This document shows positions 11,359 through 23,305 of a stretch of 45,036 nucleotides of DNA, piece by piece. How positions within the stretch are numbered: position 1 is the first letter of the stretch; every line of letters begins with the position of its first letter. This DNA is from Desulfovibrio sp. (lineage in GTDB: Bacteria; Desulfobacterota; Desulfovibrionia; Desulfovibrionales; Desulfovibrionaceae): NCBI GenBank assembly GCA_017454855.1, contig JAFTCE010000053.1:1-45036 (forward strand), given 5' to 3'. The notes below the pieces were generated by a model that saw only the letters and a list, made by a program, of their open reading frames with translations, had not been told where the DNA came from and did no database searches. Both the position numbers and the translations under genes were made by a program.

Positions 11359-12987
11359 TTAGAAGGTATAGGCGAAGGTGACCTGCGCCTTCCAGGCATC
11401 CTTTTTGGAAACATGGTCGTCATCCATCCAGCGGCGATTCCATGTGTCTGAGTCGTACATGTTGACGATGTAGCCGAGGTCGAGATTCACAGCCAGATTT
11501 TCGTAAATCTGATAGGTGTTGTCCAGGTTGAATTCCAGCAAATTGTCGTGGGTGGTCATGTACGGACCGTCCGAACCCCAGGCACCCTGCATGGCCGCCT
11601 CGCGATCGTTGAAGTACTTGACCATGGACGGGCTGTTGGTGCCACCCCACAGGGCCACGCGGAAGGTATGCGTCAGGTCTTCGAGGAAGCTCATGTCGCG
11701 CACTTGCAGACCCACGCCCCAGGTGCCGGCGTAGGTCATGTTGTATTCGATGAGGTTGCCGCGACCGTAAGGTGCCCAGTCCGTGCCCCCAGCGCCCATG
11801 AAGGAGGTGAAGGTGCCGGCACCGGAAATGGAGGGCAGGCGTTTGGAGCCATTCTTCATGTCGCCGTCGTCACCGGAGGCATACCAGCCGAAGATGCCTG
11901 GCACGCCCCAGTCAAACTTGTATTCCACCAGGGCCTTGATCAGCCAGCCTTCGCGGCGACTATCGGCGCGGACAAGCGAGTCGCCGCGCTTCCACAGATC
12001 ATAGGAACCGAAGCCCCCGGAGTAGCCGTAGTCGAATTCCAATTCGATGTTTAGCGGATCCCAGAGGGTCAGGCTGATGGGCAGACCGAACCAGAAGAGC
12101 GAGCTGTAGGCATGACTTTTGCCGAAGCCATTAGAGAGATCGCCTGTTCCCGTATTGAAGCCCGGGGCGTAGTTGATCAGTGTATGATGCAGGATGCCGT
12201 CCGAAGTACTCCAGGCATTTCTTCCAGAAAGACGGTTTCCGTTATAGCGAACTACGCCACCATCGTCGTAGCCGTCCAGGGAGTTTTTACCCATGATGCC
12301 GTAAGTGGCCCAGGGCGTGACCTCAATGCCGTCGAAGGTCAGGGGGACGGACAGGGTGAAGAGGTCGATGTTGTCCAGATAATTGGTATCCCTGGCAGTG
12401 CCGCCGCCCCTTGTCCATCCGCCAAAGTTGTCATTGACCGGGCGCATCCAGAGGACGGTCAGGCCCACATTGTCGTTGAATTTATAGTTGGCCGTCACGG
12501 CCGCCACGTCGGCATCCAGGATGGCCGAGCCGCCGGCGGCATTGGGCAGGGCGATACCCTGCAGGCCCATGCGCAATTTGAGGTCTGTCTGCGGCACCAT
12601 CCAGTCGATGTAGGCGTTTTTCACCTTGACAACACCATTGCCGTCCGCGCCCAGAGCAGCACCGCCTTGGGCATCGACATCGCTGCCCCATTTCTGGTCG
12701 CCGATTTCAAAGTAGACCGTGCCGGACAGGGCCTCAGAGGCCACGGCATCCAACTGCAGGCGGATGCGCTGACCGGCATTGAAGTTGTCCTCGCTGTCGG
12801 TCTTATGCCCGCCGACCTTGTCCACGAATCTGCCGTCGGACAGGCCAAAGCCCACCAGCCACTCGCCCTGGGCTTTGAAATCAATGGCCTTGGCACCTGT
12901 CTGGACGCCCATGACCATGCCGGCGGCCAGCAGGGTCACCATGCAGGCTTTCTTGAATGCCTTCCAGGTTTTCCTCTTCTTGGACAT
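11359..12987 (-). CDS. outer-membrane porin (Desulfovibrio-type beta-barrel)
   Basis: A 542-aa exported protein: basic N-terminus, hydrophobic signal (ACMVTLLAAGMVMGVQ) and an AKA-AIDFK cleavage region, then alternating aromatic beta-strands and a C-terminal aromatic ending (VTFAYTF), the usual signal for insertion by BamA. Typical of Desulfovibrio porins that let small solutes across the outer membrane. The start at 12987 is chosen over longer reading because GGAGG lies seven bases upstream and the signal peptide begins there. It is a close paralogue of the damaged porin just upstream (shared motifs 'GVPGIF', 'LPNAAGGSA', 'DNVGLT'), so the two arose by tandem duplication. It has its own promoter at 13093-13121 and a G8 tract in the leader. 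Confidence 0.9.
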   Translation of the reverse strand: MSKKRKTWKAFKKACMVTLLAAGMVMGVQTGAKAIDFKAQGEWLVGFGLSDGRFVDKVGGHKTDSEDNFNAGQRIRLQLDAVASEALSGTVYFEIGDQKWGSDVDAQGGAALGADGNGVVKVKNAYIDWMVPQTDLKLRMGLQGIALPNAAGGSAILDADVAAVTANYKFNDNVGLTVLWMRPVNDNFGGWTRGGGTARDTNYLDNIDLFTLSVPLTFDGIEVTPWATYGIMGKNSLDGYDDGGVVRYNGNRLSGRNAWSTSDGILHHTLINYAPGFNTGTGDLSNGFGKSHAYSSLFWFGLPISLTLWDPLNIELEFDYGYSGGFGSYDLWKRGDSLVRADSRREGWLIKALVEYKFDWGVPGIFGWYASGDDGDMKNGSKRLPSISGAGTFTSFMGAGGTDWAPYGRGNLIEYNMTYAGTWGVGLQVRDMSFLEDLTHTFRVALWGGTNSPSMVKYFNDREAAMQGAWGSDGPYMTTHDNLLEFNLDNTYQIYENLAVNLDLGYIVNMYDSDTWNRRWMDDDHVSKKDAWKAQVTFAYTF

Positions 12988-13092
12988 GCCCAAATCCTCC
13001 ATAAGATTGTTGCGCGATTCCCCCCCCATGACAGGCAGCCATGCCTTCACAAGCAGATCGGGAGAATAGCATGTTATCGCAAAAGGTGACAC

Positions 13093-13121
13093 AATATGCC
13101 ACAAAGTGTGCAGGTTGTCAA
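13093..13121 (-). promoter_or_regulatory. sigma-70 type promoter for the intact porin
   Basis: Read on the minus strand: TTGACA (13121-13116), a 17-nt spacer, then CATATT (13098-13093). It lies about 105 nt upstream of the porin start, leaving a leader of roughly 100 nt that contains a G8 run. Confidence 0.6.
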
Positions 13122-13184
13122 CTGAATTGAAATCAGATTTCTCATTCTTTGAAAATGGGTCTGTCTCAGCAGGGAAAGGCACAT

Positions 13185-13208
13185 GGGCTTGTCCATGAGG
13201 ACAAGCCC
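13185..13208 (-). terminator. hairpin after the damaged porin gene
   Basis: GGGCTTGTCC (13185-13194) and GGACAAGCCC (13199-13208) make a perfect 10-bp stem with a 4-nt ATGA loop, 77 nt past the porin pseudogene stop on the minus strand. The downstream side is only weakly T-rich, so termination may be partial. Confidence 0.5.
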
Positions 13209-13284
13209 AAAGAAGCATGGAGACACGTGCAAGGCAGAGATGGCACGCGGCGCAGGATCACCCCTCCCAGGGGGCGTTCAGGGG

Positions 13285-14843
13285 CTAGAATTTGTAGGTA
13301 AAGACGACGTGGGCCTTCCAGATGTCTTGTTTTTCATAGGAGCCGAAATTGTTGTACCCACTTCTCTTCCATGTGTCGTCGTCCATGAAGTTGGCGATGT
13401 AGCCCAGCTCTACGTTGATGTCGAAGTTTTCATACATCTGATAGACGTTGACGAGGTTGAATTCCACCAGACTGTCGTGGGTGGTCAGGTACGGGCCGTC
13501 AAAATATCCGCTTGCGCTGTTCCAGGCAGAGGCCGAGTCCATGTATTTGACCATGGATGGCGCGTTGGTTCCGCCCCAGTAGGCGGCGCGGAAGGTGTGC
13601 GACAGATCGTCATGCAAAAAATGCATGTCCCTGAGCTGCAAGCCAATACCCCATGTGCCGGCGAGGGAAACATTCAAATCCTGGAAATCGTTGCGCGGCG
13701 ACCAGTACAGATTGCCATCGCCCATGAAGGACGTCGTGTACACATAGGGGGCGACGCCTGGCATGCGTTCGGAACCGTTTTTGATGTTGCCGTCATCACC
13801 GCTGCCGTACCAGGCGAAGATGCCCGGAACACCCCAATCCATTTTGTATTCCACAAGAGCCTTGGCCAGCCCTCGCGCTTGGACGAGCCGCGTCGAATGT
13901 CGCCCGGGTCGCCGCGAACCATGTTGCGAAATCTGCCCATGCCTTCCACATAGCCATAGTTGATGTCAAATTCGATGTTCCAGGGGTCAAAGGCCTTGAG
14001 TACGACAGGCAGACCGGCCCAGAACATGTTGCCGTAGGCCTTGGTCGTGCGTCCGTAGGCCGTCACGTTGAGACCGCTGGCATTGTCGGTTTGCGCCCCC
14101 AGATAAGGGGTCATGCTCACGTCTGGCCTGCCGTCCCAGATGGCTCCATAGACCCCTGAAGCCCCTGTATTGCGACCGCGTATGCCGTACATGACCCAAG
14201 GGGTTACGTCCACGCCTTCAAAGTGCAGGGGCAGCATGAGAGCGAAGAGATCCATGTTGTCCAGGTAGTTGGCTGGGTCACGGTTGACGCCGTCGGGTCC
14301 TGTGTAGTTGTCGTTGAAGGGGCGGAACCAGAGGGCAGTCAAGCCCACATTGTCATTGAAGTAGTAATGCGCGTTGACGGCTGCGGCGCGCAGGTCGAAG
14401 ACGGCGGAACCGCCGGCGGCATTGGGCAGGGCAAAGTTCTGAATGCCCATGCGTGTGCGCAGACTGGTGTTGGGCAGCAGCCAGTCAATGTATGCCTGGC
14501 GTACTTTCACTATCTGGTTTCCGTCAGCGCCCAGGGCACCGCCTTGCCAGTTGCCCCGGCCCCATTGCTGTGGCCCGATGTGGAACATGACCGTTCCACT
14601 CAGGCTTTCGGAAGCCACGGCATCCATTTGCAACAGCAGGCGTTGACGCGCTGCAAAGGTATCTTCATTACTGCCCTTGATTTTTTCCCCAGCCGCATTG
14701 CGATAATTTTTGATCAGTGACGTTTCGCCCACGGCAAAACCCATGTTCCATTGCCCTTTGATTTTGAAATCAATGGCCTGAGCAGCGCCGGCTGCGGAGA
14801 AGATGAGCGCCGCTGCCAGGAGCAAGGTACGTAATTTTTCCAT
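13285..14843 (-). pseudogene. porin paralogue, frameshifted by a 4-nt deletion
   Basis: This is a second Desulfovibrio-type porin, with signal peptide 'MEKLRTLLLAAALIFSAAG' and mature start AIDFK. AAGGAGG precedes the start. The frame is intact to about residue 325 ('SSKREGW'). There the sequence reads GGC TGG CCA AGG, where the paralogue has GGC TGG CTG ATC AAG. Restoring one CTGG unit near 13864-13872 gives 'REGWLAKALVEYKMDWGVPG' and continues to a proper C-terminus (VVFTYKF) at 13285. The total of 1559 nt becomes an exact multiple of three (1563) after adding 4 nt. So the gene looks like a ~520-aa porin lost by slippage in a CTGGCTGG repeat. A sequencing error is possible but less likely for a 4-nt change. 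Confidence 0.85.
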
Positions 14844-14924
14844 GTTTCCTCCTTGTCATTTTGCCTGAAAAAAGACTTCAGGCGGGAACCTCAACCAAAG
14901 AGTCCCCGCCCCACAGTTGTCCAG

Positions 14925-15690
14925 TTAATTTCTTGCTGTTTGCGGATGTACTTCCTGCTGCGCAGGGCCAGTCCACTTGTCAAAGCTGTCAGCAGGCATG
15001 GGCTTCATGTAATGACGCAAGAGATAGCCCTTTTCGTGGCGTACGATTTGCATCCAGCTCAAGGTCAGCAGCAGGACGGGCAGGGCCATGAGCGCGCCGG
15101 AGAAATTGCCAAATTGCTTGGCCACGTTGAGACCGCCAATGGCCAGCAGCCCCACAGCCAGCAATGCCTGGGCAAAGGCCCAGAAGGAACGATGCCAGCG
15201 GGCCGGATCGTCATTGACGCCCAGACTGCGCGTGGCCACGGACGCCACCACATAACAGCCGGAGTCCACGGATGTGGCCAGGAAGATGGTGGAGAAGGCG
15301 CAATACACACACATGACGAGTTTTCCCAGAGGCAGAGTGTCCAGAACGGCCATCATGGCGGCAGGGCCGCCGGATTGCTTCAGTATGGCCACGGCGTCCA
15401 GAGCCAGTTTGCCTTCCACATGGTTGACGGCATTGTATTGGAGCCAGAGCGTGTAGGAACCGAACACGCCGTGGATGAGGTAGCCGCCGACTATGCAGCC
15501 CAACATGCCCCATACAATGACCTCGCGTATGGTGCGTCCGCGTGAAATGCGGGCAATGAAGAGGCCCATAAAGGGACCATAGCCAGCCCAGAAAAGGGCA
15601 TAGAAGATGGTCCAGTCACGCGGGAAAGAATTGTCAGCAAAGGGGGATATCCAGAAGGTCATGTTCATGTAGTTGCCGAGCATTTTGCCA
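14925..15690 (-). pseudogene. BCCT-family transporter, C-terminal half only
   Basis: The sequence encodes the last ~255 residues of a betaine/carnitine/choline transporter: 'WTIFYALFWAGYGPFMGLFIARISRGRTIREV' is the hallmark BCCT segment, followed by several membrane helices ('STIFLATSVDSGCYVVASVAT'). BCCT proteins are ~500-540 aa with 12 helices and import quaternary-ammonium osmolytes by Na+ or H+ symport. About half, including the first helices and any start, is absent. Upstream of ~15690 the frame simply reads antisense through the divergent phosphatase remnant. The break is therefore a deletion that joined two divergent genes. It is probably non-functional. Confidence 0.82.
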
Positions 15691-17092
15691 CGGAATTTTA
15701 CCCCATGGGTGTGCAGGGAACGTTTGAAGACGCTGAAGGCTGGGAAAACCTGCCCGAAGACAAGGACGAACCGTTGGATATGTCGGTCACGGTGCGTTTT
15801 AAGGAGGGCGTGGAACCTGTAGAGGATCAGGTCTGGCATGTGCTTGCCTGGCAGAGCGGCGATGACGGGTATGATCGCGTTACCGTGGCTCCGGTAAAAG
15901 ATTTTCACAAAGCGTTTTTCACTATTGCTCCCCGCCAGTGGAGCGAGCCAGTGGAACACGATTTTAGGATTGCTTCGGACGGTCGCACAGAAAAAGGCGT
16001 GTTCCGTTGTAAGCTCATGCAGCTCTCCGACGATGCCGAAGAGTTCAAACTCTATGTGTCCGGCGTGGCTGGCCGCACGCAGTTCATAGCTCCCGCTGCT
16101 GCAGCCGCCAATATTGATTTTTCAAGGCAGATCACGGCCAACGACATTGGCCTTGTGGCTTCCTGCACGGCATCATCGACACGGAAACTGTCTGCGAGCT
16201 GGTGGAATTTCACAGTGCCTGGCTTTGGAATACCATTGAATGCCTCATAAAAGCTAATCCTGACTGGGATTTGCTGTACATGCATTCCCATCCCATCGAC
16301 TGGTTTTATCATGGTTGGTTAAGTGATCTGGACAGCAAGGATGACAAGATCCGCGCAGCTGCCGAAAAAATGGAGCGCCATATCTACACTGTGGAAGACC
16401 GTTTGCTTGGTCGCCTCATGGACATTATGGGGGACGAAACCCTTGTCTGCTGCTGCTCGGATCATGGCGCCACGCCTATGGGCCCCATCCTCAACACGGC
16501 TCACGCCCTCAGCCAAGCGGGACTCCGCTCCTACGAACCCAAGAAGTCCGAAAACTATTGGGACATCTACGAGGAGAGCGAAGGCTTCAACTATGTTCTG
16601 GACGTGAGTAAATCCAAGGCCGTCCCCCAGCGATACATGTTCGTCTACGTCAACCTCAAGGGCAAATATCCCGGCGGCATCGTGGAGCCGGAAGATTACG
16701 AAAAAGTGCGCTCGCAAATCATTGATGCTCTTCTGGATTACCGTCATCCTGACACGGGGGAACGTCCTGTACTCATTGCCGTGCGCCGTGAGGATGCCCA
16801 TGTCTTCGGTATGGGCGGCGCACAGGCTGGCGACGTGGTCTATGTACTCAAGCCCGACTACATGGCCGAACATGGGTACGGCTTGCCTACAGGGGAATCC
16901 GGCTGCGGCAGCCTGAAAAATCTGCTCATGTTCCGTGGGCCCAACATCAAGAAGGGCTTTGTCTATCCCCGTCCGCGCTGGCTGGCCGACATTGTGCCCA
17001 CACTCTGCTACATGACGGGCAATCCTGTGCCAGACGACGCCGAGGGCGGTCCCATCTATCAGATCATGGAAGACCCCGATCTTGTGAAATAA
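15681..17092 (+). pseudogene. alkaline-phosphatase-superfamily enzyme (type I phosphodiesterase-like), 5'-truncated and frameshifted
   Basis: The remnant covers the insert domain and C-terminal catalytic half of a type I phosphodiesterase/nucleotide-pyrophosphatase-like member of the alkaline phosphatase superfamily. Visible motifs are 'DLLYMHSHPIDWFYHGW' (metal-site D/H), 'VCCCSDHGATPMGP' (SDHG metal ligands) and 'RPRWLADIVPTLCYMTG'. The N-terminal part with the metal Asp and nucleophile Ser/Thr is missing; the frame opens directly at the BCCT junction. A 1-nt deletion near 16155-16159 splits the rest: the upstream frame ends at 16250, while the correct downstream frame already reads 'GFLHGIIDTETVCELVEFH' from 16157. 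The substrate is unknown; hydrolysis of a phosphate ester linked to the BCCT substrate is only a guess. Confidence 0.8.
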
Positions 17093-17158
17093 CACCCATA
17101 GCTGGGCATACCAGCCCCATGCCTTACAAGCTGGGGTTCAAGGAGAAAGGAATATTGT

Positions 17159-17713
17159 ATGGCAGACAAAAAAGCAATTCTCGTGATTTCTCAAGGCATG
17201 AAGCTGGCTGACGCCGGTGAAGCTCTGGATAAGCTGCGCAAGAAGGCCGCCGTTCTCCCCCATGCCGACGTCGTCGGCCTTGCGGACAAGGCTGTAGCTC
17301 TGGGAGGGGTGCAGACCGACGTCGCTGGTCTTGCAGGCGTTTTGGAAAAGAACGCTCTTGCCGTGATCTGCGGTCAGGGAGAAGCCGTGGGCGCCGCCCT
17401 GGAGGCTGCCAACCGTCGTACCCTGGTTGTGGTGGCCGCCGATGACGGCGTGGCCTTTTACGGTATGGGGATCAACGGTAAGGCCGGTCAAGTGGCCCGC
17501 AAGGTTGATGCGGACGATATTGTTTTGACTATTGCTACCTTGGCGGATGTGCCTATCGGCGGGGACTGCACGGTCGGCATCATCTATCAGGTACTCAAGG
17601 ATCCCAATGTGAAGCTCAATGAACTCATTAAGCTGCAGGAAGCGTTGGCCCGCATGGAATCCGTCATTGAGCGCAATAATCGCGAGCCTTGGGATAAGCA
17701 CGATTGCGCATAA
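17159..17713 (+). CDS. compact alkaline-phosphatase-like protein (C-terminal module only)
   Basis: A 184-aa protein of unknown function. Its second half resembles the end of the neighbouring phosphatase: 'LVVVAADDGVAFYGMGING' sits where SDHG would be, and 'DADDIVLTIATLADVPIGGDC..GIIYQVLKDPN' aligns with 'LADIVPTLCYMTGNPVPDDAEGGPIYQIMEDPD'. The metal-binding His is replaced (DDG instead of DHG), so it is unlikely to be catalytic. It ends with 'NREPWDKHDCA'. AAAGGA lies seven bases before the ATG at 17159 and the gene follows the phosphatase by 66 nt, so it was probably in its operon. It may be a regulatory subunit or a solute-binding relic. The 3' end overlaps the extended regulator reading frame by 50 nt. 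Confidence 0.6.
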   Translation: MADKKAILVISQGMKLADAGEALDKLRKKAAVLPHADVVGLADKAVALGGVQTDVAGLAGVLEKNALAVICGQGEAVGAALEAANRRTLVVVAADDGVAFYGMGINGKAGQVARKVDADDIVLTIATLADVPIGGDCTVGIIYQVLKDPNVKLNELIKLQEALARMESVIERNNREPWDKHDCA

Positions 17714-19271
17714 GGTAGGGGGAATGGCATCGCGCCGGATCTGATGCAACAAAAAACGCGCTCTGGAGTAGGCCAAGAAAGGTTCTGCTCCAGGTGCGCC
17801 TGAGGATACCATGTGCGCCGCGTGAGGGGCGTGCAGTGGACACTGCGCTAAGTCGGTAGTGTTTTCGTCCGTGTCGGGGGGGCATCTTTTCGCCTTCAAT
17901 GCCAAGGGCTTTCATCTTGCGCTGCAGGGTACGCAAATTCAATCCTAATGCCTGAGCGGTTTTCCCCCGACGCCACCGGCATTGCTCCAGCATGTTGAGG
18001 ATGAGTCTTTTTTCCATCTGGCACATGGCATCATCCAGGGTCTGCCCTTGTTTTACTGTTTCAGGCAGGACATTTATGGGAGTGTTCAGGAAATCCACGG
18101 CGCTTTCGCCAAAAACCGCGAATCTGTCCAGGAAATTGTTCAGTTCCCGCACGTTGCCCGGCCAAGTATGGTGGGACATGGCAAGGCGCACCTGTTTTGT
18201 GATTGGCAGATCGATACCATTGCGCTCGCACCATGCCTTGACCAAGAGCGGCAAGTCTTCCTTGCGTTCCCTGAGCGGTGGCACGGTTATGGTCAAGACA
18301 TTGATGCGGTAGTAAAAATCGGCTCGAGACCTGCCATCGCGAACCTGTTCAGCCAGATCGCGATGCGTGGCGGCGATGAGCCGGAAGTTGGAGCGCTGGG
18401 GCGTAGTGCAACCCAAGGGCGTGTAAGTCTTTGTTTCCAATACGCGCAAAAATTTTACCTGGAGATTGACCGGCAATTCGCCGATTTCATCCAGGAAAAG
18501 CGATCCGTTGTCCGCTGCTGCGATAAAGCCCTCTTTGGAGGCAACAGCTCCAGTGAAGGCACCCTTGGCATATCCGAAAAATTCGCTTTCTAGTAGATTC
18601 TCGGGAATGGCTCCGCAGTTTACGGGCACATACTTGCCCTTGCGTCCGCTGTAATTGTGGATGGCCCTGGACACCATTTCTTTGCCGCAGCCAGTCTCGC
18701 CATAGATGATGACGTTCGTTTCTGTTTCCGCAGCCTTGAGAATGAGACTGTACATCTTGTGCATGGCATCACTTTTGCCCACAATGTCGCCAAGCCGTTC
18801 TGACTGTTCTAAGCTCAATTTGAGCTGGCGATTCTCGTTTTGCAAAGCCAGTTCCTGGAATTTTTGCTCGCTGACGTCCAGCATGATGCCTTCCAGATAC
18901 AGAGGTGTGCCGTCTTCGGCATAGATGGCCTCGCCCTGATCCCATATCCACTTGATGCGACCGTCTGGCAGTTTCAGGCGGTACATGACTTGCCAGGGTT
19001 CATGCGCGACAATTTTGTCGTAGATCTCGGACCGCATGCGCTCCAGATCTGCAGGATGGGTCATGCGCTCAACAGTGTTCCAGCGTTTGTCCATCATTTC
19101 CGATGCGGGAATGCCCAGGAGATTTTCGCTGCCCGCGCTGGCATACTCAAGACGATAGGTAAAGTCTCCCTCAATTTTGCATCGGTATACAAGATCGGGC
19201 AGGCGATTGAGCAATTTGTCCAGACGGGCCTGTACGCGAATGTTTTCCCTTTCAGTCTGCGATGTGTCCAT
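17664..19271 (-). CDS. PAS-domain sigma-54-dependent transcriptional activator
   Basis: A 535-aa enhancer-binding protein. Residues ~10-140 form a PAS sensor ('GRIKWIWDQGEAIY', 'GIMLDVSEQK'). The central AAA+ domain has Walker A 'GETGCGKE', the sigma-54 contact loop 'GAFTGA' and 'DNGSLFLDEIGEL'. A Fis-type helix-turn-helix ('GKTAQALGLNLRTLQRKMKALG') ends near residue 460. It would activate RNA polymerase-sigma54 on a nearby promoter such as 19579-19593. The last ~75 residues are odd and the frame runs through an apparent terminator into the convergent gene. Adding one C to the C7 run at 17876-17882 would stop it at 17850, giving ~474 aa. The start at 19271 has only a weak ribosome site (GTGGGAC). 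Confidence 0.9.
   Translation of the reverse strand: MDTSQTERENIRVQARLDKLLNRLPDLVYRCKIEGDFTYRLEYASAGSENLLGIPASEMMDKRWNTVERMTHPADLERMRSEIYDKIVAHEPWQVMYRLKLPDGRIKWIWDQGEAIYAEDGTPLYLEGIMLDVSEQKFQELALQNENRQLKLSLEQSERLGDIVGKSDAMHKMYSLILKAAETETNVIIYGETGCGKEMVSRAIHNYSGRKGKYVPVNCGAIPENLLESEFFGYAKGAFTGAVASKEGFIAAADNGSLFLDEIGELPVNLQVKFLRVLETKTYTPLGCTTPQRSNFRLIAATHRDLAEQVRDGRSRADFYYRINVLTITVPPLRERKEDLPLLVKAWCERNGIDLPITKQVRLAMSHHTWPGNVRELNNFLDRFAVFGESAVDFLNTPINVLPETVKQGQTLDDAMCQMEKRLILNMLEQCRWRRGKTAQALGLNLRTLQRKMKALGIEGEKMPPRHGRKHYRLSAVSTARPSRGAHGILRRTWSRTFLGLLQSAFFVASDPARCHSPYLMRNRAYPKARDYCAQ
17751..17799 (-). terminator. Rho-independent terminator for the sigma-54 regulator gene
   Basis: On the minus strand the arms GCGC (17799-17796) and CTGGAG (17793-17788) pair with CTCCAG (17768-17763) and GCGC (17761-17758), with a small bulge, followed by G and six T (17756-17751). 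This is a canonical terminator but lies inside the present reading frame of the regulator. Confidence 0.65.
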
Positions 19272-19316
19272 AATGTCCCACCACGTTGAAGATATAGGGA
19301 TGGCATTGTATCTATG

Positions 19317-19352
19317 ACGACACGAGTGTCGTTTAAGGTGACAAATTTGTCA
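19317..19352. promoter_or_regulatory. paired palindromes, candidate activator (UAS) sites
   Basis: ACGACAC-GA-GTGTCGT (19317-19332) is an inverted repeat with 7-bp arms, and TGACAAATTTGTCA (19339-19352) is a perfect 14-bp palindrome. They lie 46-81 nt upstream of the regulator start and 227-262 nt upstream of the putative -24/-12 promoter at 19579-19593, the usual distance for enhancer sites of a sigma-54 activator. Autorepression of the regulator is an alternative role. Confidence 0.5.
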
Positions 19353-19578
19353 TATTTTTTGACATCCTGCCCAGAATCAAACCGCATGGTGCAAAAAGAC
19401 CAAGTGTTCCAGGCAGGACAAGGCTACATCCTGGGGGCCTTATGGAAGGGGCGGGCAGGAAGTTGCGCAGGCTGTTGGTCAAATTTGCTTCTGTAGAAGA
19501 GGAGATGCGTGTGTGTCGCACGTCAAGCAGGAAACATGCCATTGACAGGGGCTTTTTTTGAGGGCCGAGTTGGCGCAT

Positions 19579-19594
19579 TGGTATGGAATATGCT
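19579..19594 (+). promoter_or_regulatory. putative sigma-54 (-24/-12) promoter of the osmC-lpd-gcvH-DMT run
   Basis: TGG (19579-19581) and TGCT (19591-19594) keep the essential GG-N10-GC spacing of sigma-54 promoters; the intervening bases match consensus moderately (TGGTATG). It ends 49 nt before the OsmC-like start and is adjacent to a sigma-54 activator gene, which supports it. A weak match at the CAC positions keeps confidence moderate. Confidence 0.5.
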
Positions 19595-19642
19595 TAAATC
19601 AACGGCGAGTTATGTCGGTCATTTGCCAAAGGAGTTTGCAGC

Positions 19643-20080
19643 ATGTCACAGGAAGTTACGGTTTCCTTACAACGCCGCGGTTCTCTCATTGATTTGGACA
19701 TGGAAAATGCCGCCCTTGGTTGTGTGCATGTGGACAATAACGCCATACCCGAAGAGGAACGCCCAGGTTCGGCCAAAAAGCTGTTGGGGGCGGCTGTACT
19801 CTATTGTTACGTGGCGGCGCTGGACAAGGCTCTGGATACGCGTGGCGCCAAATATGAGTCCATTGATGCCAGAGCCACTGTTACTGCCGGAACTGACGAC
19901 AAAGGGAGAGGCCGTATTGTGGGCATAGTGCTGGATGTTACTGTGCATATGGACGCAGATTACGAGGATGTGTTTGAGCGCGTCAGCAAGGTCATGCGCA
20001 ACGGCTGCCTCATATCTGCATCCTTGGAAGCTGCCTTTCCCGTAACGTACAATCTTCAACTGGAATGCCCCGACGATTAG
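19643..20080 (+). CDS. OsmC/Ohr-family protein (peroxiredoxin-like)
   Basis: The 145-aa product has the OsmC fold pattern: N-terminal beta strands, 'PGSAKKLLGAAVLYCYVAALDKAL' (central helix with the first redox Cys), then 'VGIVLDVTVHMDADYEDVFERVSKVM' and 'NGCLISASLEAAFPV' with the second Cys. OsmC/Ohr enzymes reduce organic hydroperoxides with a Cys pair recycled by dihydrolipoyl groups and lipoamide dehydrogenase. The two following genes encode exactly a lipoamide dehydrogenase and a lipoyl carrier. The start at 19643 has AAAGGAG eight bases upstream. The second Cys is in 'CLIS' rather than the usual CPxS. Some OsmC-family members have other roles, so peroxidase activity is inferred. Confidence 0.72.
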   Translation: MSQEVTVSLQRRGSLIDLDMENAALGCVHVDNNAIPEEERPGSAKKLLGAAVLYCYVAALDKALDTRGAKYESIDARATVTAGTDDKGRGRIVGIVLDVTVHMDADYEDVFERVSKVMRNGCLISASLEAAFPVTYNLQLECPDD

Positions 20081-20101
20081 ATTTTTTTACGGAGGATCAT
20101 C

Positions 20102-21520
20102 ATGCGCATCACCATCATAGGCGGCGGACCCGGCGGCTATACGGCAGCGTTTGCCGCTGCGCAACGAGGAGTGGAAGTCACGCTCGTCGAAAATAGTAAT
20201 CTTGGAGGCACCTGCCTCAATTGTGGCTGTATCCCCACCAAGACGCTACGGGCAACGGCAGATGCGCTGGAACTGTCCAGGCGTCTGGCGGAATATGGCG
20301 TCACTGGCGGTTCGAGCGCACTGGATCTGGACGCTGTACGGCGGCGCAAGGACAGCGTCATCAAGATTCTTGTGGGCGGGCTGGAAAAAGCTTGCGCGCA
20401 CCACAAGGTCACCTTGTTGCGCGGCATGGGACGGTTGCAAGATGCCCATACCGTGGTGGTGCGCAGTGCAGAGGGGGAAGTGTCCGTAAGCAGTGATGCC
20501 GTCATTTTGGCCACGGGTTCCCGTGTCCTGGAGCTGCCCGGTCTGGCCTTTGACCATACAGTAGTGTGTAGCAGCGATGACGCCTTGCAATTGACGCGCA
20601 TTCCTCGGCGTCTTGTCATCGTGGGCGGCGGTGTCATTGGTTGTGAGATGGCCTGCATTTACCAGGCATTTGGCAGCGAGGTCACCGTCGTCGAGGGTTT
20701 GGATCGCCTCTTGCCCCTGCCTTCGGTGGATGCGGACGTGAGTGCCTTGCTTCAGCGTGAATTTCGCAAGCGTAAAATTAAAATGTTCCTGGGGCGGACG
20801 CTCAAAGATGTGCGCGTGGAGCAGGGGTTGGCGCACGGCGTTGTGGCGCCATCGCCCTTTGTTCCAGCCACGTCTGCCGGAGTGGCGGAAGAAGCCATTG
20901 AGGCTGACATGGTGTTGGTGACGGTAGGGCGGGCATCGACCACGCAGGATTTGGGCCTTGCCACGGTCGGTATTGATGTGGACAAGCGTGGCTGGATTTT
21001 GGTCGATGACTGCCTGCGTACATCTGTGCCAGGTGTGTATGCTATCGGTGATGTGTGCGGCCCAAGTCGCGTCATGCTGGCACATGTGGCTGCTGTGGAG
21101 GGATTGCGCGTTGTGGATGCCGTGTGCGGTGTGCCCCGACCAATGTGCTATGATTATGTGCCGGCAGCCATTTTCACTGTGCCCGAAATCGGTTCGGTTG
21201 GATTGAGTGAGACGCAAGCCAAGGAAAGGGGTGGGCGTGTTGCCTGCGGTATCACCCAAATGCGCGAACTGGGAAAGGCCCAGGCCATGGGAGAATTGCC
21301 CGGCTTTTTCAAGGTCATTGTCGATGCGGACAGTGGTCAGCTTCTGGGTGTGCATATCGTGGGCGCGCATGCCTCGGATTTGGTGGCTGAAGCCGGTCTT
21401 GCCCTGTCCGTCGGCCTCAATGTTCACCAGTTGGCAGACACCGTCCATGCTCATCCCACCCTGGCCGAAGGACTGTACGAAGCGGTGCGCAATGCCATCG
21501 CCGCCATGAAAACTGCCTAA
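20102..21520 (+). CDS. lpdA: dihydrolipoyl dehydrogenase
   Basis: A 472-aa FAD-dependent pyridine-nucleotide disulfide oxidoreductase that reoxidises dihydrolipoyl groups with NAD+ (or reduces them with NADH). Motifs in order: FAD Rossmann 'IIGGGPGGYTAAFAA'; redox disulfide 'GGTCLNCGCIPTKTL'; NAD Rossmann 'VIVGGGVIGCEMACIYQAFG'; FAD motif 'GVYAIGDVCG'; and catalytic His-Glu in 'HAHPTLAEGLYEAV'. Normal length. GGAGG lies six bases before the ATG at 20102, and the gene sits 21 nt after the OsmC-like gene and 19 nt before gcvH, so it belongs to one transcript. No E1/E2 or glycine-cleavage P or T genes are nearby. Its partner is therefore probably the H-like protein and the OsmC protein rather than a dehydrogenase complex. 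Confidence 0.93.
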   Translation: MRITIIGGGPGGYTAAFAAAQRGVEVTLVENSNLGGTCLNCGCIPTKTLRATADALELSRRLAEYGVTGGSSALDLDAVRRRKDSVIKILVGGLEKACAHHKVTLLRGMGRLQDAHTVVVRSAEGEVSVSSDAVILATGSRVLELPGLAFDHTVVCSSDDALQLTRIPRRLVIVGGGVIGCEMACIYQAFGSEVTVVEGLDRLLPLPSVDADVSALLQREFRKRKIKMFLGRTLKDVRVEQGLAHGVVAPSPFVPATSAGVAEEAIEADMVLVTVGRASTTQDLGLATVGIDVDKRGWILVDDCLRTSVPGVYAIGDVCGPSRVMLAHVAAVEGLRVVDAVCGVPRPMCYDYVPAAIFTVPEIGSVGLSETQAKERGGRVACGITQMRELGKAQAMGELPGFFKVIVDADSGQLLGVHIVGAHASDLVAEAGLALSVGLNVHQLADTVHAHPTLAEGLYEAVRNAIAAMKTA

Positions 21521-21539
21521 CCCAACCGGAGAAATTGCC

Positions 21540-21929
21540 ATGAAAACTCCTGACCAAATCAATGTGCCCACTGACCTGCGCTACCACAAGGAACACACCT
21601 GGCTCAAGAGTGAGGGCGACACCTACCTTGTGGGCATCAGTGATTTTGCTCAAGACCAGTTGGGCGAAGTGGCCTTCGTAGACATGCCCTAGGCCGGGGA
21701 ACATTTTGCTGGGGGGGAGCAGTTTGGGACAGTGGAATCCCTGAAATCTGTCAATGCCCTCTACATGCCCGTGGCAGGTACGGTTGTGAACGTCAATGCC
21801 GAATTGGAAGAAACGCCCACGCTCGTCAATGCCGATTGTTACGGCGAAGGCTGGATAATCCGCATTAAGGTTGACGATCCGGCTGAATCCAATGGCCTGT
21901 TGCAAGCCGAAGAGTACAGACATGGCTTA
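21540..21929 (+). pseudogene. gcvH: glycine cleavage H-like lipoyl carrier with internal amber codon and lost stop
   Basis: The frame from 21540 reads as an H protein: 'YHKEHTWLKSEGDTYLVGISDFAQDQLGEVAFVDMP', then TAG at codon 51 (21690-21692). After it comes 'AGEHF..GEQFGTVESLKSVNALYMPVAG', which contains the lipoylation Lys (ESLKSV), and 'NADCYGEGWIIRIKV'. Family members have Glu, Gln or Ala at the TAG position, so CAG or GAG to TAG is likely. The normal end near residue 130 is also gone: a TAA at 21928-21930 is one base out of frame, and the frame runs on into the next gene. GGAG precedes the ATG by eight bases. It is probably inactive unless the amber is read through. Confidence 0.8.
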
Positions 21930-21941
21930 AGGAATTGCCCC

Positions 21942-23045
21942 ATGTCACAAGCTCAAGGCAACGCGGGAGCCTATCCAGCTTCTGATGCTGCCGCCCTGGC
22001 AGCTCTGGAACGACAACAGTCACGGTTTCGGCGTCAAGGCATTGGCACGGCCGTTCTGTCCGGTATCGTTTACGGTTTGTTTACCGCCTTTATGGCACTG
22101 GCCATGGATATGGGCATTTGGACAACGTGGGCCGGTGAAGATTCCGGCCTGTCCAAATTTTCTCAAGTGTACCTGGTCGGTACGTTGGGTTCAGGCATTC
22201 TTTGCATGTTTGGGGCCATATGGTCCATAACCATACTCACATGTCGGGGAAAGCTCGGGGATTTTTTTCGCAGTCTGGCAAGCCGTCCTGGAAGCATCGT
22301 TCTGGGAGTGGCTCTGTGTGGAGGCCCCATCGCCATGACCCTCTATGTGCTTGGACTGCAAATGGCCGGTTCCATCATCGTGCCCATCAGTGCCTTATGC
22401 ACGGCCATAGGCGCTGTGCTGGGACATGTTCTTTTTGGTCAGAAGTTGAACGTCCGTAAAAGCCTTGGCGTACTCATCTGTCTTTTTGCCGGTATGCTCA
22501 TCGGCAGTACGGGACTGACGGAGGAAGCGCCGCCGCAGCTACTTTTGGGTATGTGCTTCGGTTTTCTTGCCGCCTTCGCCTGGGGCTTGGAGGGCTGCGT
22601 GGGAGGCTATGTCAGCGCCATCATTGATTCGGAAATCAGCAATGCCATACGACAGCTTACAGCCGGAATGGGCACCTTCTTTCTTCTTGTGCCCATTTTC
22701 GGCTATCTGGGCGAAGCCAATACACTGGATATGGTCGTGGCGGCGGTGACAGACGGGCCATCCATGTTTTGGTTTTGTATTGCTGGATTCTGCACCTACT
22801 TGACCTATATGCTCTGGTATAAGGGCAACGCCATGTGCGGAGCCGCCCTGGGCATGGCCTGTAATGGCATGTTTTCCTTCTGGGATCCATTTTTTTGCTG
22901 GATTGTCATGGGGCTTTGCCATGGCAAGGACGGTTTTGCACTACCCTTGGTGGTCTGGGCGGGCGCAGTGATCATGGTGGTGGGCATTTTCGTCATTGCA
23001 CTTAACCCCCTTGAACTGCTGCATCGACGGAGGCGGGACGCATGA
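21942..23045 (+). CDS. DMT-superfamily (EamA-like) transporter, ~10 TM
   Basis: A 367-aa integral inner-membrane protein with about ten hydrophobic helices, arranged as two homologous halves as in drug/metabolite transporters (for example 'SGIVYGLFTAFMALAMDMGIW', 'PGSIVLGVALCGGPIAMTLYV', 'ICLFAGMLIGSTGL', 'LVVWAGAVIMVVGIFVIAL'). Substrate unknown. The start at 21942 is preferred because AAGGA lies eight bases upstream and an N-terminal cytoplasmic tail begins there. The same frame is open upstream through the H-protein remnant, so a readthrough fusion is formally possible. The next small gene overlaps its stop by 4 nt (ATGA). Confidence 0.75.
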   Translation: MSQAQGNAGAYPASDAAALAALERQQSRFRRQGIGTAVLSGIVYGLFTAFMALAMDMGIWTTWAGEDSGLSKFSQVYLVGTLGSGILCMFGAIWSITILTCRGKLGDFFRSLASRPGSIVLGVALCGGPIAMTLYVLGLQMAGSIIVPISALCTAIGAVLGHVLFGQKLNVRKSLGVLICLFAGMLIGSTGLTEEAPPQLLLGMCFGFLAAFAWGLEGCVGGYVSAIIDSEISNAIRQLTAGMGTFFLLVPIFGYLGEANTLDMVVAAVTDGPSMFWFCIAGFCTYLTYMLWYKGNAMCGAALGMACNGMFSFWDPFFCWIVMGLCHGKDGFALPLVVWAGAVIMVVGIFVIALNPLELLHRRRRDA

Positions 23046-23305
23046 AGCCGCTTAACTACGCCATACTGAAGTATCTGACAACCGTTCAGGATGCATCCGT
23101 TGAAGACGTCATGACGGCACTTCACGATGCGTATGGGAGCTTCAGGGCATTTACCAGAAAAGGCATTACGGAAATCCTCATGACGGCTTCGGTAAATGGT
23201 TTGTTGGAACAATCACGCGTCGAACTGGACGAGAAGGGGGACTTGCGCATGTATTTTCGTGCCCATAAGGTGGGCATTGACGTCATTAATCGCTATATTT
23301 CCTAA
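23042..23305 (+). CDS. small winged-helix-like protein, function unknown
   Basis: An 87-aa cytoplasmic protein. Its start overlaps the transporter stop as ATGA, so it is translationally coupled and surely part of the same transcript. Predicted character is three helices ('LNYAILKYLTTVQ', 'SVEDVMTALHDAYG', 'RKGITEILMTASVNGLLEQS') followed by a charged beta-hairpin ('RVELDEKGDLRMYFRAH'), an arrangement resembling a winged helix-turn-helix. DNA binding is inference from pattern only. It might regulate or assist the transporter. Confidence 0.6.
   Translation: MKPLNYAILKYLTTVQDASVEDVMTALHDAYGSFRAFTRKGITEILMTASVNGLLEQSRVELDEKGDLRMYFRAHKVGIDVINRYIS

Follow-up and report, generated by a model that had tools for sequence, protein, structure and literature searches.

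A sigma-54-associated gene unit linked to choline trimethylamine-lyase, with a copy in a Desulfovibrio genome that looks recently inactivated

On a 45,036-nucleotide contig of Desulfovibrio sp. (JAFTCE010000053.1, assembly GCA_017454855.1), called the window hereafter, genes for an outer-membrane porin, a BCCT-family transporter, a hydrolase, a sigma-54 activator and a lipoyl carrier lie side by side, and several of them are interrupted. Do these genes belong together, what would they do, and is the damage real? The source draft genome (G000) comprises 2.95 Mb in 174 contigs, the window being one 45-kb contig. Its estimated completeness is 99.97%, and records bearing the name Desulfovibrio sp. 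belong to its genus. A sequence-only reading of the window had proposed one undescribed metabolic unit that has lost selection. Judged from the comparison with relatives, the genes do form a real unit, larger than first claimed. We give an even chance to the interpretation that this unit is a sigma-54-controlled, horizontally exchanged island that would import and cleave a choline-like ester with the help of a thiol/lipoyl relay, the window holding a freshly inactivated copy.

The unit spans positions 13285-23305. The sequence-only reading had ended it too early, as the EamA gene (21942-23045) and a gene for an 87-residue protein (23042-23305) also belong to it. Porin, BCCT transporter and sigma-54 activator are encoded on the minus strand. 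Hydrolase, a small partner protein, OsmC, dihydrolipoyl dehydrogenase (Lpd), the GcvH-like lipoyl carrier, EamA and the 87-residue protein are encoded on the plus strand. The closest intact copies were found in genomes G037 and G062. In G037, the porin, BCCT, hydrolase, partner, regulator, OsmC, Lpd and GcvH genes are complete and in the same order on one 11,956-base contig, off the end of which EamA runs. In G034, all nine genes are open, with a lipoate-protein ligase gene inserted between GcvH and EamA. The expectation that relatives would group these genes in the same order was thus borne out. Records of the intact relatives give goat rumen, reindeer and water deer as sources; further relatives presumably come from the canine mouth, the termite gut and the sea, to judge by their names, the record titles being silent on this.

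The distribution of the genes was surveyed at 46 named loci, taken from a species-wide scan with two short peptide patterns. All 46 are named as Desulfovibrio kin or Deltaproteobacteria. Within 10 kb, a range often cut by contig ends, the partner was found at 41 loci, BCCT at 31, the sigma-54 regulator at 24 and OsmC at 22 (the latter two counts may take in paralogues), Lpd at 15, GcvH at 14, the porin at 12, the choline trimethylamine (TMA)-lyase CutC at 11 and EamA at 10. The partner gene neighbours the hydrolase gene at its 41 loci; the remaining five have a hydrolase match that stops where the contig does, or close to that point. Six to eight loci, most of them titled Deltaproteobacteria, have a set of neighbouring open reading frames in common, which in L249, L251 and L263 overlie the permease, binding-protein and ATPase genes of an ABC importer. 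Those of L263 fit taurine-type models best, below their cut-offs. DsrE/DsrH-like genes stand in the L079 cluster, and genes similar to them in L238, L245 and L247; the DsrE/DsrH-type genes of the clusters score over Pfam and under NCBIfam cut-offs.

Synonymous differences between G037 and G062 amounted to 44-69% in ten pieces of seven unit genes (EamA 47%) as compared to 13-25% in 14 control genes, though weak codon bias could also lift the value of the unit and the controls come from only two stretches, the window flank and L139, with two more genes lacking a G062 orthologue. The G037 copy sits on a small contig of a metagenome-assembled genome, where a binning error is possible; the comparison of flanks is independent of it. 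When the flanks of the window (13 + 22 kb), G062 (3.5 + 1.8 kb) and G004 (21 + 24 kb) were compared by tblastx, nothing convincing was common beyond the 87-residue gene. Taken together, the raised synonymous divergence and the unlike flanks suggest that the unit was exchanged horizontally as a block. That the genes are mere chance neighbours is scarcely credible. Sub-blocks are indeed rearranged or partly missing in distant relatives, but the same order recurs in several species, the block has a common boundary while its flanks differ, sigma-54-like sites accompany the genes and synonymous divergence is raised over the whole block.

The lesions of the window were read from alignments against intact relatives (G037, G062 and G034; for gcvH, G037, G062 and G004). 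Five genes had been reported as damaged, and four of them, porin, BCCT, hydrolase and gcvH, are broken. The porin gene has lost 4 nucleotides near 13864, a gap placed in three alignments. A joint deletion with its junction near 15690, where about 3 nucleotides of microhomology were judged by eye, has removed the N-terminal ~312 residues of BCCT and residues 1-161 of the hydrolase; 1817 nucleotides are missing as compared to G037, 2071 as compared to G062 and 1842 as compared to G034. A further nucleotide of the hydrolase gene is deleted near 16160. Because the presumed metal ligand D14 and nucleophile T53 fall inside the deleted part, the active site is incomplete and the window's hydrolase should not work. 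In gcvH, TAG occupies positions 21690-21692, the same codon being GAG in G037, GAA in G062 and CAG in G004. The gene's own stop, at about 21930, is lost, which fuses it in frame to the EamA gene. The fifth lesion, a stop loss in the regulator, was not confirmed: about 60 extra, non-homologous residues follow near 17879, and the last residues also vary among the three relatives. All Pfam domains are present, and the regulator may be whole despite its altered end. OsmC, Lpd, the small partner, EamA and the 87-residue protein are open in the window. As a consequence of the gcvH stop loss, an open reading frame at 21732-23045 joins the C-terminus of the lipoyl carrier to EamA, whose ATG is kept at 21942.

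Pyrrolysine read-through of the gcvH amber codon was ruled out, as no pyrrolysyl-tRNA synthetase (PylS) was found over cut-off in G000 and TAG is the stop of 26 of the 90 genes examined there. On these grounds the amber codon is a true stop. With inactivating lesions present and recoding ruled out, the broken genes are regarded as pseudogenes. Within the genus, PylS scores over cut-off in 4 of 79 genomes (G009, G011, G065 and G067), and UAG recoding may be variable there. A separate loss was seen in G004 (L078, G004:C53 20000-32000), where BCCT, hydrolase, partner, regulator and most of the porin are gone while OsmC-Lpd-GcvH-EamA is kept. As far as the alignments tell, this is a second, different deletion inactivating the gene unit in another lineage.

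As a control, open reading frames of relatives were compared with about 298 kb of G000 (the window and 20 stretches) at places of at least 60% identity, not every one of which is a gene. A script flagged 11 of 60 places on other contigs and 2 of 13 window places outside the unit. From the local open reading frames, all 13 were judged to be artefacts, namely antisense frames or upstream starts; this judgement is our own. No control place then counted as broken (0 of 73), as compared to 4 of the 9 unit places (Fisher p = 7e-5, or 1.5e-4 with 60 as denominator), which rules out genome-wide frameshift errors. We therefore consider it very improbable that the lesions are assembly or sequencing artefacts. 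The draft state of the assembly, in 174 contigs, would allow for such artefacts, and the remnants show little or no relaxed selection, as errors or culture mutations would. Nevertheless, four unlike lesions (a large deletion, a 4-nucleotide deletion, a 1-nucleotide deletion and a substitution) fall within 8.7 kb, no control place is broken on inspection, and in G004 another deletion has taken out the middle genes of this unit.

How old is the damage? In the two pieces of the hydrolase remnant, 0 of 172 residues that are invariant in 25 family members have changed. The ratio of nonsynonymous to synonymous differences (pN/pS) from the porin, BCCT and hydrolase remnants to G037 and G062 was 0.04-0.15, as compared to 0.03-0.09 for the intact G037-G062 pair; the measure is coarse here, as synonymous differences are near saturation, and the window lineage is also more distant in most control genes. 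Long-standing relaxed selection on these three remnants is unsupported, their values being near or somewhat above those of intact pairs. Overall, the low ratios and the unchanged invariant residues indicate that inactivation looks very recent on the scale of species divergence. Two observations weigh against this reading of the ratios: pN/pS of the porin pieces is 1.6 to 3.4 times that of the intact pair, and towards the outgroup G034 all five window pieces range from level with to 1.4 times the intact genomes. Downstream of the amber codon in gcvH, pN/pS reaches 0.20-0.31 as compared to 0.11-0.14 among intact relatives, which points to possible relaxed selection on this part; given this raised nonsynonymous change, the amber codon may be the oldest lesion. 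Lpd is slightly up (0.28-0.30 as compared to 0.21-0.25). Of the proposal that the genes had lost selection, the inactivating lesions stand, with little sign of long relaxed decay.

The intact hydrolase has 629 residues, and aligned relatives are 64-95% identical to the G037 protein. The two phosphatase genes of the sequence-only reading (open reading frames 15705-16250 and 16202-17092) turned out to be pieces of this one gene, and the gene that follows encodes the partner instead of a second enzyme. No signal peptide is evident when the N-terminus is read by eye. The intact protein matches PF01663 (Phosphodiest) with E 5e-26, and its best profile matches in the PDB are phosphonoacetate hydrolase (E 1.5e-4) and then NPPs, with one sulfatase weaker (E 0.009). 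Phosphonoacetate hydrolase and NPPs are Thr-nucleophile enzymes. These matches place the hydrolase in the alkaline phosphatase superfamily, as an NPP/PhnA-like member; it does not reach the PhnA equivalog TIGR02335, scoring 16 bits against a cut-off of 407.55. D14, T53, D366, H370, D420, H421, H557 and Y74-Y77 are invariant in alignments of 25 and of 28 rows, the catalytic positions being the presumed metal ligands and nucleophile. The four consecutive tyrosines Y74-Y77, which come unvarying after the active-site motif, are a possible quaternary-ammonium box.

The partner is 26-66% identical among aligned relatives, 82% to the window. It ends in the tail REPW[DE]KHDCA in 18 of 18 aligned rows, window included. 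A 54-column stretch of it is homologous to the C-terminus of the hydrolase (hhalign 97.5%), from which we conclude that the partner is derived from the hydrolase's C-terminal part. A Pfam search with the G037 partner returned no family at E 0.1, and no homology to DsrC was shown, the homology found being that to the hydrolase C-terminus. Against an even sample of 395 genomes of the phylum, the partner profile gave 11 matches, six of them full-length; four others cover only part of the profile, within a longer frame of hydrolase size, and one (G614) covers its C-terminal half. The latter, at G614:C365:1969-2226, lies inside an open frame of 669 codons that is possibly a hydrolase-partner fusion. 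A plasmid search with the hydrolase returned 22 records, all below 60% identity, the ten listed being at 22-30%; at least 80% of the query was covered in three, all Mesorhizobium plasmids. No hints at function came from the two Mesorhizobium plasmids and one haloarchaeal plasmid inspected. On the two former (L281, L282), hydrolase relatives of about 22-24% identity stand beside transketolase, DegT aminotransferase and radical SAM genes (one B12-binding), with a TldD-related gene in addition in L282; these clusters look like a biosynthetic pathway.

The strongest functional link of the unit, though absent from the window, is to CutC. Among 288 genomes of the family, 62 were taken as hydrolase-positive: their matches to the C-terminal hydrolase piece of the window reach about 64% identity or more, and the broken copy of G000 is among them. 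A further 21 genomes, whose matches are weaker (G012, G018, G084, G280 and others), went into the negative group. CutC scored over cut-off in 44 of the 62, as compared to 20 of the 226 others. The corresponding table (both/hydrolase only/CutC only/neither) reads 44/18/20/206 (p = 4e-22), and splits into 15/8/6/50 within the home genus and 29/10/14/156 outside it. Counted per genus outside the home genus, it reads 10/2/1/30 (p = 4e-7); relatedness of the genomes overstates such p values, and the per-genus table is the safer one. Hydrolase and CutC genes share one contig in 29 of the 44 genomes with both, within 20 kb in 18 of these 29, and lie on different contigs in 15. At six of the 46 loci (L219, L221, L223, L230, L232 and L233), CutC directly follows GcvH and is followed by CutD. 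Beside the unit in L076, which by its equal length seems to be the contig of L219, the CutC and CutD models also score over cut-off. Two CutC matches carry internal stops (G201:C1:3906944-3909310 and G118:C35:27414-29774), as possible pseudogenes or cases of recoding.

The OsmC, Lpd and GcvH proteins keep conserved residues: both OsmC cysteines in 20 of 20 rows, the Lpd redox cysteine pair in 15 of 15 and the one GcvH lysine at the lipoyl site in 14 of 14. No GcvP match was found in the unit, and the unit's GcvH occurs without GcvP over cut-off in G030, G075 and G034 (93%, 82% and 74% complete). In addition, contig 63 of G000 carries a gcvH-gcvP locus of its own. These GcvP absences (GcvT was not searched) and the second gcvH beside gcvP rule out that the unit's GcvH and Lpd serve in glycine cleavage; by this evidence, the lipoyl module is independent of the glycine cleavage system. 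OsmC/Ohr proteins can take lipoylated proteins and Lpd as reductant. OsmC-Lpd-GcvH might then be a lipoyl-dependent organic hydroperoxide reductase in a stress operon, alongside import of betaine as osmoprotectant, with only an ecological link to CutC. The BCCT family does contain the classic betaine and choline carriers. We nevertheless find this explanation improbable, as it leaves no role for a hydrolase kept at 64-95% identity to the G037 copy, and CutC is physically linked to it, within 20 kb on 18 of 29 shared contigs.

Candidate sigma-54 sites were scored with the -24/-12 consensus and tested against shuffles (<=0.02) in 22 of the 46 loci. Sites that beat the shuffles stand upstream of BCCT in 16 of 22 regions, osmC in 7 of 18, the hydrolase in 4 of 22 and CutC in 1 of 6. 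Of the 22 regions before the hydrolase, 17 have TGGCA[CT] between -65 and -125, each site being weak by itself; at the other five loci, BCCT and hydrolase run in one direction. In the window, the site before osmC remains and the BCCT/hydrolase intergenic region is gone. The remaining site (TGGTATGGAATATGCT) is not significant alone, as 0.20 of shuffles score as high. A sigma-54-driven lipoyl module is a candidate on this evidence: an activator is present, and the sites before osmC, like those before the hydrolase, are weaker than those before BCCT.

These results can be put together as follows. A choline-like (quaternary ammonium) ester would enter through the porin and the BCCT symporter, if transport runs inwards, or in some other deltaproteobacteria through a TauABC-like ABC importer in place of BCCT. 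A cytoplasmic two-metal hydrolase, with a Thr nucleophile of the NPP/phosphonoacetate-hydrolase type, would cleave it together with the cysteine-tailed partner. The choline part would pass to CutC where present. For the other half, the C-terminal cysteine of the partner, OsmC, the lipoyl carrier and Lpd may act as a thiol relay, joined in some relatives by DsrEFH-like proteins. We prefer choline-O-sulfate as the substrate, from which a sulfate reducer would gain both choline and an oxidised sulfur group. Such a substrate would make joint sense of BCCT and taurine-type importers, hydrolase, CutC and sulfur-type partners. In a rather improbable extension, hydrolase and partner would not just hydrolyse the imported choline-like organosulfur compound; its sulfur group would be transferred to the partner's C-terminal cysteine. 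OsmC, Lpd and the lipoyl carrier, in some species along with DsrEFH-like proteins, would then reduce it, so that organic sulfur could enter sulfite/sulfide respiration of sulfate reducers at a saving of ATP, with TMA formation coupled to this.

Several points weigh against the choline-ester island. CutC over cut-off is absent from 18 of the 62 hydrolase genomes, among them G000, G037 and G062, some of the 18 being incomplete. OsmC, Lpd, GcvH and CutC lie within 10 kb at only 22, 15, 14 and 11 of the 46 loci, and contig ends explain only part of this. The roles of the aromatic residues and of the cysteine tail are deduced from sequence. Known sulfatases of the alkaline phosphatase superfamily use formylglycine; the hydrolase family has Thr at the nucleophile position, and the one sulfatase among its weak PDB matches stands at E 0.009. 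Choline phosphates or phosphonates are the main rival substrate. The choline supplied by the island might come from phosphocholine, glycerophosphocholine or a choline-like phosphonate, in which case the hydrolase would be a phosphohydrolase and the thiol module would only protect against oxidative damage or act on something else. The NPP/PhnA-like profile with its Thr nucleophile and the linkage to CutC speak for it, and phosphorylated choline compounds are common in gut contents. We hold it to be doubtful, as it leaves unexplained why DsrE/DsrH-like genes and a TauABC-like importer occur at some loci, why the cysteine tail is invariant and why the 46 loci found by the two peptide patterns are all named as Desulfovibrio kin or Deltaproteobacteria, lineages of sulfate-reducing habit.

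If the choline-ester reading is right, a partner system of the choline TMA-lyase would make a single nutrient the common origin of TMA and sulfide. Desulfovibrio and its kin are sulfide formers, and the reading makes a testable claim on what these bacteria import. It would also mean that a GcvH-type lipoyl carrier can serve beyond glycine cleavage, and it adds a protein pair of unusual make-up, one member being a degenerate hydrolase domain with an invariant cysteine tail. In the window, the island would be seen shortly after its inactivation. The open-licence literature searched contained no description of the unit or its chemistry, in agreement with the initial impression that the unit is undescribed.

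Table 1. Coordinates of the unit's features in the window
Feature	Position	Strand	Basis or remark
Outer-membrane porin gene, broken	13285-14843	-	pieces 13674-14843 and 13285-13854; both overlapping open reading frames match one porin of 522-537 residues in G037/G062
BCCT-family transporter, C-terminal ~255 codons left	14925-15690	-	PF02028 positions 273-473 only; corresponds to residues 313-567 of the 570-residue BCCT of G037
Deletion junction BCCT/hydrolase	15690		5' ends of both genes and region between gone
Alkaline-phosphatase-superfamily hydrolase, residues ~162-629 of 629	15690-17092	+	alignments; PF01663 in intact copy
Small partner protein, 184 residues, intact	17159-17713	+	tail common to 18/18 aligned rows; hhalign 97.5% to hydrolase C-terminus
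PAS / sigma-54 AAA+ / Fis-type helix-turn-helix activator	17664-19271	-	Pfam matches; domains whole, unusual C-terminal extension
Sigma-54-like -24/-12 site TGGTATGGAATATGCT, upstream of osmC	19579-19594	+	like G037 site TGGTATGAAATATGCT (-63), at similar distance
OsmC-family protein, intact	19643-20080	+	PF02566; Cys55 and Cys122 conserved
Dihydrolipoyl dehydrogenase (Lpd), intact, Cys38/Cys43	20102-21520	+	TIGR01350 above cut-off
GcvH-like lipoyl carrier, broken	21540-21929	+	in-frame TAG 21690-21692 and own stop lost
EamA/DMT-family transporter, intact	21942-23045	+	orthologues downstream of GcvH in G037, G034, G062, G004; in frame with gcvH remnant
87-residue protein, last gene of conserved block	23042-23305	+	only clear flank homology common to window, G062, G004; also G034 with G062

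A second porin gene, open, directly adjoins the unit (window 11359-13218); its product is about 50% identical to the unit porin of G037.

How does the unit compare to known systems? With the cut system (CutC, CutD) it shares its neighbourhood, CutC directly following GcvH at 6 of 46 loci and lying within 10 kb at 11 of 46, whereas no CutC over cut-off occurs in the window's genome. In the D. alaskensis cut paper (PMC4215793), the passages on the microcompartment cluster mention the lyase and genes for acetaldehyde processing, short of a full list of the cluster, and none of the unit's genes is among those mentioned. PhnA and the NPP phosphodiesterases are the best profile matches of the hydrolase, which has the equivalent threonine and metal-ligand motifs; unlike PhnA, it has 629 residues as compared to 408 model positions, falls below TIGR02335 and has the partner gene adjoining in 41 of 46 loci. 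DsrC/TusE, acting with DsrEFH/TusBCD, resembles the partner in the penultimate cysteine on an invariant C-terminal tail and in the DsrE/DsrH-like genes of some clusters. The partner, in contrast, stems from the hydrolase, and its resemblance to DsrC is not one of homology. PMC13293266 is related work, and passages of PMC5701242 mention an OsmC protein of D. desulfuricans without this unit. The glycine cleavage system likewise uses a GcvH-type carrier and Lpd, but the unit is without a GcvP match and G000 keeps gcvH-gcvP elsewhere. A further parallel in carrier use is found in the lipoate-binding proteins of sulfur oxidation (sHdr-LbpA, PMC6067878), where a GcvH-type lipoyl carrier likewise acts outside glycine metabolism. 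As to differences, no Hdr-like gene was noticed in our clusters, in which no search was aimed at one, and the unit's carrier stands with Lpd and OsmC.

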